Source: an uncultured Nitrospirota bacterium
Lineage (GTDB): Bacteria; Nitrospirota; Nitrospiria; Nitrospirales; UBA8639
Length of the DNA: 64,000 nucleotides
Assembly (NCBI GenBank): GCA_937139405.1
Contig: CAKZPV010000004.1
Coordinates: forward strand, 62,001-126,000
Direction: 5' to 3'
Part shown: positions 6,228 through 17,436 of the stretch, in pieces
Layout of the letters: every line of letters starts with the position of its first letter
Numbering within the stretch: position 1 is the stretch's first letter
Notes under the pieces: model-generated
Seen by the model: the letters and a program-made list of their open reading frames with translations, nothing else
Databases searched by the model: none
Told to the model about the DNA's origin: nothing
Position numbers and translations under genes: made by a program

Positions 6228-6699
6228 TCAAGTTTTTCCCTCTTCCCAAAAAAAATTACTCTCAGCTTGAGGCTTTTCGGCATAACCGAATAATCCGTGA
6301 GGATTCTTACAAAGGAAGGATTAGAGACCTACTGATAGTAGCATTGGAGGGTTTCTATTGGAGAAACCAAGGTTTCCAAATGCTTAATTAGACCACCTCT
6401 CGCGCAAAACCTACTTATTTGTTTAGCCGAGATTCAGAGGCTCTGAGGCTGGGGATTGAGAGAACAAAATAACTTTCCAGAAGCTGTCCTGGTCACCTTT
6501 GGATTCCCGAGTCTCCTCTGAAATGTTCTGTTGTTTACATATTCTCTTGAGCAGTGTTGCTCTGGCTGAAAGGTTGTGAGAAAGATTGAGGGTGTGATGG
6601 TGACATCTCCCCCGAGTAAGTTGCAGGTATATGACGTGAAAAGGGCCGCGGCACCTATCCGCAGCCCTCAAAAATCAATCTTGGAAAAATATTTCAGTA
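6228..6699. other. Intergenic stretch after ppk1 with a small hairpin
   Basis: No convincing gene. A perfect 7-bp hairpin (GGTTTCT, 5-nt loop, AGAAACC) lies at 6350-6368 but lacks a T-run, so it is only a weak terminator candidate for ppk1. The rest shows open frames without ribosome sites or coding character. Confidence 0.4.
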
Positions 6700-7152
6700 T
6701 TATACAGCATGTATGACGAGGTTATTGAGATGTTCCATGCCAATACAGTCCAGGATGCAATAGGCGCGGTATTTAGAGCCTTCTTCTCCGACTTGGAGGG
6801 TAATGCTCGACTGTTGCTCCCAGGCCCAAATTTTACCAGACTCCTGAGTGCCCTTTTTCCCAGTGATGGCTACTTGGTGCGTATCGCCATAAGCTAAGCT
6901 GGACAAGCTTTCGTCAAAAACAAAATTGATGCGAACGACTTTGCCTTTTGGTAATTGCAGGATATTTTTCTTGGTAAAGACCTTGCCCTTTTGATCTAAA
7001 AATCCTTTTTGGTTCACCTTTACCGTAATCTCCATATCGACAGACTGAGTGGTAGTTGGTGACGCCCAGACCATGGGGAGTTGTACGAGAGTCGTGGTAA
7101 AAGTCAGCGCTGTGGCCAGTACGAGGCTTTTCATGCGTCGTGTCGTTGTCAT
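6700..7152 (-). CDS. Secreted cupredoxin-like protein with CuA-like Cys pair
   Basis: 150 residues. Signal peptide at 1-30 ending VWA before SPTTT. The mature part is a single beta-rich cupredoxin-like domain: MEITVKVNQKGF (40-51), KGKVVRINFVFDE (69-81), His92 in GDTHQVAI and a C-terminal metal-site stretch YCILDCIGMEHLNN with Cys132, Cys136, Met139 and His141. The C-x3-C spacing is that of CuA sites rather than type-1 copper, but His follows the second Cys by five positions instead of four and the terminal Met of CuA is absent, so metal type is open. ATG 7152 has AAGGAGA five bases upstream. It lies downstream of the Cys/His-rich gene and a c-di-GMP-type riboswitch on the same strand. Role probably periplasmic electron transfer or copper binding (inference). 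Confidence 0.75.
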   Translation of the reverse strand: MTTTRRMKSLVLATALTFTTTLVQLPMVWASPTTTQSVDMEITVKVNQKGFLDQKGKVFTKKNILQLPKGKVVRINFVFDESLSSLAYGDTHQVAITGKKGTQESGKIWAWEQQSSITLQVGEEGSKYRAYCILDCIGMEHLNNLVIHAV

Positions 7153-7219
7153 GAGTTCTCCTTTATGATTAAAAAAAACTTGGTTGCTAAATCGACGTAT
7201 TCTTATGTTTTACCTTCTG

Positions 7220-7489
7220 TTATCCAATAACATCCGGCCCAATGGTGCTCAGGTCCTGCTGATGTTTCCGAACAGCTTGGTCGTGAAGATGTTGCGCTTC
7301 TGTGCTATGAAGGCAATCCTGTGCGCAAGGCTCTCCCTGATGGCCGTGTGAGAATTCTGAGCAGTCCGTAACCTCAAGACCTCCCTGATTGGCACCTCGA
7401 AAGACATTGACTTCAAATATCACACCACAGTTCTTTTTATGTTCTGGACATTCTAGTGAGGCTTTGACTTGAGGCACATGTGAGTTCAT
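7220..7489 (-). CDS. Small Cys/His-rich protein
   Basis: 89 residues with five Cys (14, 21, 43, 55, 59) and many His, e.g. CPEHKKNC near 14-21 and CAQDCLHSTEAQHLHD from 55. No signal peptide or membrane helix, so probably a cytoplasmic metal (zinc or iron-sulfur) binding protein; I do not recognise a named family. A strong AAGGAG precedes ATG 7489 at about seven bases. It is the first gene after the GEMM-type riboswitch (7700-7796) and is followed 67 bp later by the cupredoxin-like gene, so the pair is probably one transcript under that riboswitch. Confidence 0.7.
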   Translation of the reverse strand: MNSHVPQVKASLECPEHKKNCGVIFEVNVFRGANQGGLEVTDCSEFSHGHQGEPCAQDCLHSTEAQHLHDQAVRKHQQDLSTIGPDVIG

Positions 7490-7699
7490 GATTTTTCTCC
7501 TTGTTTCATGATTTATGTGAAATGAATGATTATGTTATTTTTCATTAGAACCATTTTTCTCAAAATGGAACGAGATTCCCTCCAGGAGAATCACTGAAAT
7601 CCCACACACAGCTGTTAAACGATGTAGAAGGGGTTGAAGTGAATCCTTCGATCTCGGGAGGAGCCATTTAAGAAAAAATGGCTATTCCAAGTGAGGGAC

Positions 7700-7796
7700 T
7701 TCTTTCCTTCGGCAACCCGGCCTGTCAGGACTTGTTCGTGTCTAACCCGTGGTTTTGCGTCCCCGTTTTCTAACGGTTGGCCTTTTCGAGAAAGAA
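7700..7796 (-). promoter_or_regulatory. Probable cyclic di-GMP-I (GEMM) riboswitch aptamer
   Basis: Read on the minus strand, this stretch has GEMM-I landmarks in order: a closing stem TTCTTTC/GAAAGAA (7790-7796 with 7700-7706); GGCCAACC; a short stem CCGTT/AACGG with loop AGAA; the highly conserved GGGGACGCAAAACCACGGG; a variable second hairpin; and GGCCGGGTTGCCGA, the receptor-side strand. The first downstream gene on that strand is the Cys/His-rich protein about 210 nt away, then the cupredoxin. A hairpin AGCCATTT/AAATGGCT (7665-7685 region) just 3' of the aptamer might be part of the expression platform, though no T-run follows it. Ligand subclass (c-di-GMP versus cGAMP) cannot be told by eye. 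Confidence 0.8.
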
Positions 7797-8344
7797 CAGT
7801 TGTGAGTTCACGTAGGACAAATCCTGTTGTTGCAGAAAAATATCGGCATGTACCACAAAAACTTGACCCATCCTGTTCTTTCAAATTTGAACTGAGTGAT
7901 GCTCAAAGGAAAGGAGGGTCCGATGAGCCTTTTGACCATCCTATCTAAAAATTCGAAAAACTAGCCGTTACGGTCAACTGAATGCCCGCTTAGAATCGAA
8001 CTCGGAAATTTACCGTACGAAGCTAGACTCTCTAGCAATCGTTTAAACTGTTCGGCTGATTTCGGCCAATAGCGATCATTGAGTTGCCTCAAGATAATGA
8101 CAATATACCTAGAAAATTCGGCGGTATACCTCTACACTCATGCAAGCAAAATATTATACTGAACGTGCCATTCACATAATCAGAGCTGAGAGAAAGCTTG
8201 TGGAGCATTGGGGTAGATACACTATCGAAGCGATCCACCAGTGCGTCGAGTGGAAAGACGACAACGGCAAGTTCTAAACCCTTAGCTGTAACTAATGGAA
8301 AAGTATTTTCAGGGAAATCTGAACCATCAAAGGAGTATATTGAA
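7797..8344. other. Intergenic stretch with a decayed MITE-like repeat
   Basis: No gene supported. At 8055-8079 lies a diverged copy of the right half of the 52-bp palindromic repeat seen complete at 15169 and 17629 (shared core ATTTCGGCCA and AGCG.TCA), and TGCCCGCTTAG near 7983 may be its left half, about twice as far apart as in the intact copies. The region just before the aptamer's 5' end should hold the riboswitch promoter; no box was clear. Confidence 0.4.
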
Positions 8345-8707
8345 ATGATCAAATTTGTTATGTGTTTACGTCGGCACCCAGAGATGACTCGCGAGCAGTT
8401 TCAAGATTATTGGACGAATAAACATGGCCCTTTCTTTATGAAAAATGCTGGCGATATGAGGGCTAAAAAATATGTGCAATCTCTTACTGTAGATACCCCT
8501 TTAAACGAAGGGCTAAGGAATTCGAGAGGCATGTTGCCAGAATATGATGGCGTCGCAGAGGTATGGTTTGAATCAGAAAAAGATCTGGTGGAGGCAATGA
8601 GTTCACCTGAGGGGCAGAAATTAAGCGCCATGCTACTAGAAGATGAGCGGAATTTTATCGATCATTCTAAATCTTCGGCATTTATTGTTAATGAACATGA
8701 GCTTTAA
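8345..8707 (+). CDS. EthD domain-containing protein
   Basis: 120-residue small ferredoxin-like (dimeric alpha/beta barrel) protein of the EthD family. Visible family traits: MIKFVMCLRRHPEMTREQF at the N terminus, then YWTNKHGPFF (residues 21-30), and the C-terminal YDGVAEVWFESEKDLVEAM followed by EDERNFIDHSKSSAFIV, the typical EthD tail. ATG 8345 was preferred over an upstream in-frame start at 8198 because GGAG lies about ten bases upstream and the protein then begins exactly where the domain begins. Members act in small-molecule degradation or stand alone with unknown role; nothing nearby indicates a substrate. Confidence 0.8.
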   Translation: MIKFVMCLRRHPEMTREQFQDYWTNKHGPFFMKNAGDMRAKKYVQSLTVDTPLNEGLRNSRGMLPEYDGVAEVWFESEKDLVEAMSSPEGQKLSAMLLEDERNFIDHSKSSAFIVNEHEL

Positions 8708-9103
8708 GTAGCTAAGAAGACGGTTCACCAGACGCCCTAATGAGTGCAGGTGCCTTCGCTTTGATCGTCCGTAATAGGTCGAACAGGCATTCACATATTC
8801 TGCACGATCATTCCTCGGACTCTTCAATATAGCTCAAGTTATGGAAGCCTCTGCCATGAGCAGCTGATTCACTGTGAGTGAGCTTGCGGGAGAAATGCGT
8901 TTGTGGGTCAAGATTTTGTTATAAGGCCCGATTGAGCAAAACATGTTTTGCGACCTGCTTGGATAATTCGGTAACAACACATGAAAATCGATTTACGAGT
9001 GCTCGGTAGCAGATTAATGTTGCCCACCAAAGACTTCATGAATTTGGTTAATCTTGTGGAGTCGCGTGAGACAAGACTTTCCGCTTTTGTAGGCGTCGGG
9101 TTC
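8708..9103. other. Intergenic, no feature seen
   Basis: Convergent region between the EthD gene and the ion-channel gene. Short open frames here lack ribosome sites; no terminator or repeat was recognised. Confidence 0.4.
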
Positions 9104-9871
9104 TTACAAACCTTCTGTTTCAATAAGTATGGTTCTACCGCAGTGCTTGCAATGCACGGCATCAGGATCATGTCGTTTAAGCCCACAGTCTGGACAGCCA
9201 TATTCTACCTTGGCAGGCCTAAACACGGCCTGTAGGAGATGGAGAAACAATGCAACACCTAATACCATGATCACAACCGCTAATAATCGCCCGATGTCCC
9301 CAGTCAGGGTAATATCCCCAAAACCAGTGGTCGTCAATGTTGTCACGGTAAAGTAAAGTGCATCAGTATAACTGCCAATATGTGGATTCACATCATGCTG
9401 AAACACATAGACCAAGGCCGTGACCACAAAAATAAACACAAAGAGATTAATGACGCTGTGAATGACACCTTCATTTCGAGCAAAAAACCTGTACTGACTT
9501 CGGAGATCTCTTAGAAGATGATAAGAACGCAATAACCTGAGGGATCGGAACACTCGTAAGAATGCAAGATTTTCAATGAACGCTGCGGCAAGAAGCGCAA
9601 GAATGACAACGATGTCTAAAAGGGAGATTGGCTGAATAAGGAAATTAAGGCGATTCCCTGCAAGGAAAAATCTCGCAAAAAAATCCAAACTCAGAACAAT
9701 GGCAATAATAAAGTCAACGGTGATAATCCAGGCAGATAACTCCACCATAGAGGTCGCAATAAAAAACCCTATGGTGACGAAATCGAAGGCAATAAGCCCA
9801 AAACGAAAATAGACAGATTTATTACTTGTTCCATAATAGAGGTTATGTAAGGAGTCTCTGTAGTCAAACAT
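9104..9871 (-). CDS. Voltage-gated-like potassium channel with C-terminal zinc ribbon
   Basis: 255-residue six-helix ion channel. Four N-terminal hydrophobic segments are followed by an arginine-rich S4-like helix RVFRSLRLLRSYHLLR near 108-123, then S5, a pore loop with the selectivity filter TTGFGD near 186 and S6 VVIMVLGVALFLHLLQAVF. After S6 the short cytoplasmic tail has a CPDC...CKHC zinc ribbon (about residues 226-245). TTGFGD rather than TVGYGD is a common bacterial variant. It has no KTN/RCK domain; the zinc ribbon takes its place, which is seen in some bacterial homologues. Weak ribosome site at ATG 9871. Stands alone on the minus strand; the region upstream carries repeat copy A. 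Confidence 0.88.
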   Translation of the reverse strand: MFDYRDSLHNLYYGTSNKSVYFRFGLIAFDFVTIGFFIATSMVELSAWIITVDFIIAIVLSLDFFARFFLAGNRLNFLIQPISLLDIVVILALLAAAFIENLAFLRVFRSLRLLRSYHLLRDLRSQYRFFARNEGVIHSVINLFVFIFVVTALVYVFQHDVNPHIGSYTDALYFTVTTLTTTGFGDITLTGDIGRLLAVVIMVLGVALFLHLLQAVFRPAKVEYGCPDCGLKRHDPDAVHCKHCGRTILIETEGL

Positions 9872-15387: not shown

Positions 15388-17436
15388 ATGATCACTTGGT
15401 TGCTGCACTCACGCCGCCGTGTCCTTCTGCTCACGCTCGGACTACTGCTGCTGTTAGACCTGGGACGTTCCATCAATGCCCGGATAGGACTCTCCGAACC
15501 TCCAGAGTTATGGCAACCCGACCCGACTGTGTATGCTAATCTGACCTGGCCACCGGGCACGAATCTACCGCCGGATGCTTCCGTGGGACAACGTGTATTC
15601 GCGCAACGCTGCGCCGTCTGCCATGGACCGGATGGTCGCGGAAACGGACCGGCTGCCCCTTCACTCATCCCCCATCCACGTAACTTCACAGAAGGTAAGT
15701 TTAAGTACAAGTCGACCCCAGCAGGGAAGCCTCCACGCGAAAGTGATCTGATACGCACCGTCTCCAATGGCCTCCACGCGAGTGCAATGCCGTACTTCCA
15801 CGACCTTCTCAGTGAAACCGAGATTCGCGCAGTCGTGGCGTACATTAAAGGGATGTCGCCTGTCTTCGATGGTCCTCTTCCAGACGCCATAGAAGTCCCC
15901 CCACGAGTCACGTCGGATGCCGCGAGCATCGCTAGAGGGAAAACACTTTACTCGCAATTTGGTTGCGTGGCCTGCCATGGTGCCGATGCGCGAGGCGGCC
16001 TCCCTCTTCAAGAGAGCACTGGGTACCCCGTGCTCTCTCGGGACCTGACAGCCCCCTGGACCTTCCGAGGGGGGAGCGATCCTGAACAGATTTGGTTGCG
16101 CATGTCTACGGGTCTAACCCCTGGTCCCATGCCAGCATTTGAGAGCGCGATGACTCCCGACGAACGGTGGGATGTGGTGAACTATCTACTGTCACTGACC
16201 CGCGTGCCTCCATGGGAAGCTGGTGGCAAACTCGATGGCCCCGGACAACAAGCCGATTTGCTCAAACGTGGCCGATATTTGTTACACGCGCAAATGTGTG
16301 GAATCTGTCATACCCAAACCAATCCCATCGGAATCTACCGCGGTGATGACTTTTATTTGGCTGGTGGGATGCGGGTTGGCGCATACCCCCATGCCGTCTA
16401 TGTTTCCCGAAATTTAACTCCAGACAAAGAAACCGGTTTGGGCAATTGGACAGAACAGCAGATTGCGAATGCGCTTCGCAATGGCCGATCACCGGATAGG
16501 CTGCTTAATTCCTGGGCCATGATCTGGGCCTTCTTTCACAGTCTGACAGACGATGATGCTCTCGCCATTGCCCGGTATCTGAAGTCGCGCCCTCCAGTGA
16601 AAAATCACATACCTCCTCCCTTGTACTATGGGGTGGTGGAAACCATTGCGGTCAAACTCACCGGTCCGCTTCCAGAAGGACAGCCGAGGGTTCTAACCTA
16701 CTCGGCCGGCAACTTTGGCCAACCCAGCCTTGGTCCTTACCCAGATCTTCCTCAACAACTATTGATTGGTGGACAATGGGTGATCCTTCTCATGGGGACC
16801 ATCGCCTTCGTCTTCGCCGGGCCGCGCGAACGACGATTTCCGAGAACAGTGAAAGGTTGGCTTCTCACCGGACTGGCGGTATTGGGAATTGGCGTCGGTG
16901 GGCTAGCCGGGTTTTTTCTTTACTATACTCCCACCTTGAGTTTCATTGCTCCAAAGGAGATTGCGAACGGGGTACTCGCAAATATGCCTCATGTAGACTC
17001 AGCAAAGCACAGTAGTCCTGAACAGACGGCTATGGTGGAGCGTGGGCAATACCTCTACAAGAATATATCGTGCAACAACTGTCACGGCCCAGATGGAAGC
17101 GGTGGGCAGAAAATCAGTTGGCTTCCGGCTGGAACCCATTGGACGCGTAATCTTACGCCAGATCCCAAGGCTGGTATTGGAGCATGGACCGACAAAGAAA
17201 TAGCAAGAGCAATCCGCAGTGGCGTATCTCGGGATGGTCGACCATTACATTGGCAAGGGATGGTCTGGGACCATGCCTCGAATTTGGATGAGGAGGATGT
17301 GCGTTCGCTGATTGAGTATCTCCGAACTTTGCCGCCCGTGGAACGAGAAGTTCCCTCATTCCGTCATCCGGACGGAAGCGATTGCGAAAGGGCGACCATT
17401 TATTTAGTCGAAGACAGGAGACCCGGTTGTTCGTAG
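15388..17436 (+). CDS. Membrane-bound tetraheme c-type cytochrome
   Basis: 682 residues. N-terminal membrane anchor (about 10-27), then three class-I-like cytochrome c domains with heme motifs CAVCH (75-79), CVACH (193-197) and CGICH (304-308), two further transmembrane helices (about 450-475 and 485-510) and a fourth domain with CNNCH (562-566). Each domain has Met ligand candidates (e.g. ASAMPYFHDLL, GPMPAF). Domains are periplasmic by standard heme attachment. It resembles electron-transfer subunits of the gluconate/alcohol dehydrogenase cytochrome type but no dehydrogenase is adjacent. Its DNA is clearly richer in G+C than its neighbours and it is flanked by two copies of a 52-bp palindromic repeat, both pointing to transfer. 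Ribosome site is weak. Confidence 0.9.
   Translation: MITWLLHSRRRVLLLTLGLLLLLDLGRSINARIGLSEPPELWQPDPTVYANLTWPPGTNLPPDASVGQRVFAQRCAVCHGPDGRGNGPAAPSLIPHPRNFTEGKFKYKSTPAGKPPRESDLIRTVSNGLHASAMPYFHDLLSETEIRAVVAYIKGMSPVFDGPLPDAIEVPPRVTSDAASIARGKTLYSQFGCVACHGADARGGLPLQESTGYPVLSRDLTAPWTFRGGSDPEQIWLRMSTGLTPGPMPAFESAMTPDERWDVVNYLLSLTRVPPWEAGGKLDGPGQQADLLKRGRYLLHAQMCGICHTQTNPIGIYRGDDFYLAGGMRVGAYPHAVYVSRNLTPDKETGLGNWTEQQIANALRNGRSPDRLLNSWAMIWAFFHSLTDDDALAIARYLKSRPPVKNHIPPPLYYGVVETIAVKLTGPLPEGQPRVLTYSAGNFGQPSLGPYPDLPQQLLIGGQWVILLMGTIAFVFAGPRERRFPRTVKGWLLTGLAVLGIGVGGLAGFFLYYTPTLSFIAPKEIANGVLANMPHVDSAKHSSPEQTAMVERGQYLYKNISCNNCHGPDGSGGQKISWLPAGTHWTRNLTPDPKAGIGAWTDKEIARAIRSGVSRDGRPLHWQGMVWDHASNLDEEDVRSLIEYLRTLPPVEREVPSFRHPDGSDCERATIYLVEDRRPGCS

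Follow-up and report, generated by a model that had tools for sequence, protein, structure and literature searches.

A c-di-GMP-I (GEMM-I) aptamer lies in the 5' leader of a two-gene operon of an uncultured member of the Nitrospirales, downstream of a sigma-28/FliA-type promoter motif that is statistically linked to this class of riboswitches in the lineage. The locus was analysed within a stretch of 64,000 nucleotides (the window) and in related genomes. As judged from sequence comparison, the operon is most likely part of a circuit combining sigma-28 and c-di-GMP, because the promoter is enriched before the aptamers of the family and a sigma gene lies behind one of them. What is new is the setting: in this lineage most c-di-GMP-I riboswitches follow a sigma-28-type promoter, and an aptamer of this class also precedes a sigma paralog. 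No earlier report of such a setting for Nitrospira, or of a c-di-GMP regulon in Nitrospirales, was found in the literature searched, most subscription journals being outside its scope.

The aptamer and the genes downstream

The initial annotation had proposed a GEMM-I riboswitch on the minus strand, and the core segments that it quoted are all present there. When the whole window was compared with Rfam (cmscan), RF01051 (c-di-GMP-I/GEMM-I) matched at 7792-7708 (minus strand) with 46.7 bits (E 5.7e-6), above the gathering cut-off of 35 bits and over the full model (1-87), as the sole family above gathering; P1 can be extended to about 7798 and 7701. In a permissive scan of 6500-9200, around the operon, neither a second aptamer nor an RNA of another kind reached E<=5. 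This score, on the covariance-model check proposed with the annotation, and the aptamers found before orthologs bear out the riboswitch claim: the element is real, an additional member of RF01051 and not a chance match.

The aptamer is located 218 nt upstream of gene 1, and this placement in the 5' leader is conserved in orthologs. Gene 1 (7220-7489, minus strand), preceded by the ribosome-binding site AAGGAG (7497-7502, minus strand), encodes an 89-aa Cys/His protein of no known family, and gene 2 (6700-7152, minus strand) a 150-aa exported single-domain cupredoxin; both open reading frames are genuine conserved genes, kept as a pair. A terminator-like inverted repeat, GGGCTGCGG-ATAGGTG-CCGCGGCCC-TTTT, can be read 3' of gene 2 (6637-6667, minus strand), below the U-run threshold of the terminator scanner. 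Searches of Pfam, NCBIfam, PHROGs and PDB sequences gave no credible family for either protein, and the family name GFO_IDH_MocA was rejected since its match was below the cut-off.

Seven residues of the gene 1 product are invariant in the ortholog alignment (C14, C43, C55, C59, H61, H69 and H76). The small metal-binding-like protein of the initial annotation thus stands as a conserved Cys/His protein, which may bind metal; its structure prediction (pLDDT 49.9) was unusable. The gene 2 product carries a signal peptide. Its AlphaFold2 model, with pLDDT about 90 for the greater part of the domain, matches at Foldseek E 1e-5 to 1e-3 the folds of auracyanin, of CuA domains and of the cupredoxin domain at the N-terminus of a three-domain nitrite reductase, and also that of rusticyanin. 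Z-scores in the structural comparison reach 11.2, so that a cupredoxin is supported by the predicted fold. Residues H92, C132, C136 and M139 are invariant, and 19 aligned sequences share the motif C-x3-C-x2-M-x-[HNR], the His two residues past the Met being Asn or Arg in two relatives. The CuA ligand motif requires C-x3-C-x3-H-x2-M. As this motif is absent, membership in CuA was rejected, and from the CuA-like secreted cupredoxin described earlier the fold and the signal peptide were retained and the CuA ligand set was dropped. The protein resembles CuA, auracyanin and rusticyanin in its cupredoxin fold with His, Cys and Met positions, and differs from them in having C-x3-C-x2-M and no invariant second His.

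Two further families of the class have distant gene 1 homologs with an N-terminal membrane helix (L080, L081). A cupredoxin gene follows these as well, so the association of the two genes is an ancient one. The second messenger may control periplasmic metal or electron transfer, as suggested in the initial annotation. Elsewhere in the window, an ion-channel protein with a zinc-ribbon-like stretch at its C-terminus (9104-9871, minus strand) and a protein of 682 aa in which the haem motif CXXCH occurs several times (15388-17436, plus strand) are encoded.

Sigma-28-type promoters and c-di-GMP-I riboswitches

The putative promoter, TCAAG-N15-CCGATA, is found at 7841-7866 (minus strand), with a predicted start near 7834. 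The window match, TCAAGTTTTTGTGGTACATGCCGATA (7866-7841), agrees at 11/11 positions with the consensus T[AC]AAG-N15-CCGATA; a scan for sigma-70 promoters gave no more matches than chance. A lone match is weak by itself, and the argument therefore rests on the orthologs and on the riboswitch set. In the window and in four relatives (G099, G083, G065 and G035), the aptamer is preceded by TCAAGTT...CCGAT, and in 5/5 the boxes TCAAG and CCGAT lie 15 nt apart; a FliA-like promoter is also kept in the gene 1 leaders of G073, G057 and G077.

For the survey, the 150 nt upstream of 87 c-di-GMP-I aptamers of the family were scanned for T[CA]AAG-N15-CCGATA. Sites with at least 10/11 matches precede 47 of the 87 aptamers, against 0.17% of shuffles and 0.15% of downstream control windows, and sites with at least 9/11 matches precede 71, against 3-5% in controls; these counts are to be read bearing in mind that riboswitch loci within one target group are not phylogenetically independent, and the promoter-bearing aptamers stem from several unrelated target groups. 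With no preset motif, CCGATA emerged as the top enriched hexamer (52/87 vs 4.8%) and the spacing between boxes peaked at 15 (61% vs 1.3%). Perfect sites precede 8 of 11 Nitrospira aptamers, whereas essentially no aptamer of the same class outside the order has a site at all (0 of 44, among them L205, which belongs to the order but to a different family). This makes the coupling lineage-specific and separate from the aptamer itself, and its interpretation as a general property of GEMM riboswitches was rejected.

Flagellin genes of the same and related genomes carry TCAAGTTTT-N11-nnnCGATAA or close variants. The predicted promoter, which the initial annotation had not spotted, places the operon with genes of flagellar, pilus and adhesion type.

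In Geobacter, cytochromes are under GEMM-I riboswitch regulation, and the operon could likewise be a set of redox genes under a plain GEMM-I riboswitch, transcribed with the housekeeping sigma factor behind a coincidental motif. The cupredoxin fold, suggestive of electron or copper handling, and the GEMM-I aptamers that precede CXXCH-motif proteins elsewhere in the class agree with this explanation, which is nonetheless rather unlikely given the conservation of the motif with exact spacing in five orthologs, its more than 300-fold enrichment before the riboswitches of the family and its absence from the aptamers outside the order.

The reading of the locus as part of a motility-sigma circuit draws further on a sigma gene. 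Two FliA/WhiG-family sigma genes above the NCBIfam cut-off are present in the genome of the window, and the second lies directly downstream of a c-di-GMP-I aptamer (G000:C34:207250-208223, minus strand; L143). Its leader contains a clean intrinsic terminator, GCGCCCATTCCTCGGAGTTGGGCG-T7, after the aptamer, and the aptamer-sigma gene order is repeated in five relatives from three genera (G065, G035, G099, G083 and G069). Clean intrinsic terminators, which are also present in the other sigma leaders, were detected in 17 of 87 leaders overall, with about one expected from shuffling, and occur mainly in the groups of sigma and response-regulator genes. The 5' arm of these terminators, GCGCCC, is complementary to GGGCGC of the aptamer core (noted in L143, L152-L154, L159, L166, L173, L177 and L194), a segment present in 10/17 leaders with terminators and 16/70 others. 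Because of this complementarity, the sequences suggest that an antiterminator in the sigma leaders would be broken by the folded, ligand-bound aptamer, giving an OFF switch at high c-di-GMP.

Other riboswitch targets in the same genome include secreted FN3 proteins, a Flp-type pilin with Tad-like genes, response regulators and a protein of about 580 aa with no assigned function. Tandem or closely spaced c-di-GMP-I aptamers were observed before FN3 or pilus-type genes (L179, L094, L099, L230, L240, L244 and L252). Outside the order, three loci (L239, L246 and L253) have a c-di-GMP-I aptamer in front of a protein containing CXXCH-like motifs, perhaps a multihaem cytochrome, echoing Geobacter.

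Conservation, candidate expression platform and predicted ligand

Orthologs of gene 1 were identified in 10 of 147 genomes of Nitrospirales. The aptamer precedes them above the Rfam cut-offs in G065, G069 and G035. A covariance model built in this analysis from ten aptamers detects it also in G099 and G083, at 49 bits and E about 1e-12; it is thus conserved in five relatives from three genera, or in six genomes counting that of the window. In the alignment of the ten aptamers, 12 of 20 pairs show compensatory changes with pairing kept. No aptamer was detected in the ortholog leaders of G057, G073 and G017, including with the ten-aptamer model. In three gene 1 leaders, L072 (G073), L073 (G057) and L076 (G077), a FliA-like promoter is kept (position -345 or -268) and no aptamer was detected; loss of the aptamer is possible in them.

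Directly 3' of the window aptamer, a compound hairpin (7636-7702, minus strand; -21.6 kcal/mol, z -3.45) constitutes a candidate expression platform. Its base overlaps the 3' strand of P1, with GAA shared, and the aptamer core offers GGGAC as a possible pairing partner for its GUCCC. The U-tract is interrupted in the window, and six to seven U occupy the equivalent place in G069 and G065; the z-scores among orthologs range from -3.45 to +0.31, their significance not being uniform. An expression platform likely exists in this leader. For its polarity we lean slightly, by analogy, to OFF at high c-di-GMP, because the readable terminators elsewhere in the riboswitch set have OFF-type geometry.

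The aptamer might instead be vestigial or sponge-like, still binding c-di-GMP with gene switching lost, as suggested for the merRNA of Bdellovibrio. It has the lowest score among the seven RF01051 aptamers of its genome, the terminator scanner found no clean intrinsic terminator in its leader, and some close relatives retain the promoter with no aptamer detected. Intact pairing and ligand-contact positions, maintenance in six genomes of three genera and the long hairpin that adjoins the aptamer point the other way and make this explanation quite improbable.

The segments CGCAAA and GCCGAA are intact in the window aptamer, as are G20, A47 and C92, the letters that contact the ligand. This numbering was taken in part from PMC9049102. 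Position 20 (the column preceding the inner stem) is G in the window copy and in 83 of the 92 aptamers examined, and c-di-GMP rather than cGAMP is predicted as the ligand for this reason. That the aptamer senses 3',3'-cGAMP as a GEMM-Ib member, which shares the fold class and of which the A at position 20 in two aptamers of the same genome and a few in related genomes is reminiscent, is highly improbable with G at this position, G20A being the change used to accept cGAMP (PMC6274999). Aptamers with A20, as in cGAMP-type GEMM-Ib, were recorded at L002, L005, L156, L170, L086 and L155, and G20 aptamers occur in the same genomes.

Proposed model and comparison with known systems

Considered as a whole, a riboswitch in a leader of about 345 nt of a two-gene operon, with a FliA/WhiG-type start and a hairpin governed by the aptamer, is a probable model for this locus, in which sigma use, ligand binding and switching are the steps that we infer. 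RNA polymerase carrying a FliA/WhiG-type sigma factor would start near 7834, and the leader would fold into the aptamer and bind c-di-GMP. Binding would decide the fold of the adjacent hairpin (7702-7636), and this fold would in turn permit or prevent transcription or translation of the operon. Readout would then occur only with a motility-type sigma factor active and c-di-GMP in the right range.

A broader proposal, advanced tentatively and with somewhat less than even confidence, is that in Nitrospirales c-di-GMP-I riboswitches are wired with the sigma-28 circuit. An aptamer with an OFF-type terminator would gate the sigma paralog, and sigma-28-type promoters would drive most other riboswitched operons (adhesin-like FN3 proteins, pili, response regulators and the cupredoxin pair), so that nitrite-oxidising bacteria and their relatives would have the motile-to-sessile switch under feed-forward control in two layers. 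If true, this would define a concrete c-di-GMP regulon for Nitrospirales and show a riboswitch class integrated in the regulon of a motility sigma factor, not independently scattered. It would also connect the conserved, uncharacterised Cys/His and cupredoxin pair with the choice between motile and sessile life, so that the function of the pair could be tested.

The window aptamer shares sequence, structure, binding-pocket letters and 5' leader position with RF01051 riboswitches, and differs from them in preceding a Cys/His and cupredoxin pair behind a sigma-28-type promoter. In Clostridioides difficile, Cd1 of the flgB operon also ties a c-di-GMP-I aptamer to motility-sigma circuitry (PMC6200980, PMC9262584), and its OFF-type terminator logic resembles that of the Nitrospirales sigma-paralog leaders (PMC9262584). 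However, the riboswitch there precedes a flagellar operon, whereas in Nitrospirales one aptamer is followed by a stand-alone FliA/WhiG paralog and many others have a sigma-28-type promoter in front of them. In Bdellovibrio, FliA is a global regulator whose published consensus, TTAAG-N16-CCGATA, is nearly identical to the motif in the window, and the c-di-GMP aptamer merRNA is found in the motile phase (PMC3627812); unlike the window aptamer, merRNA has no downstream gene, and no FliA promoter is marked for it in the table of that paper (PMC3627812). The sigmaWhiG-RsiG-(c-di-GMP) system of Streptomyces likewise places a FliA/WhiG-family sigma factor under c-di-GMP control, by means of a protein anti-sigma factor in Streptomyces and, as proposed here, of an RNA aptamer in Nitrospirales (PMC8325347).
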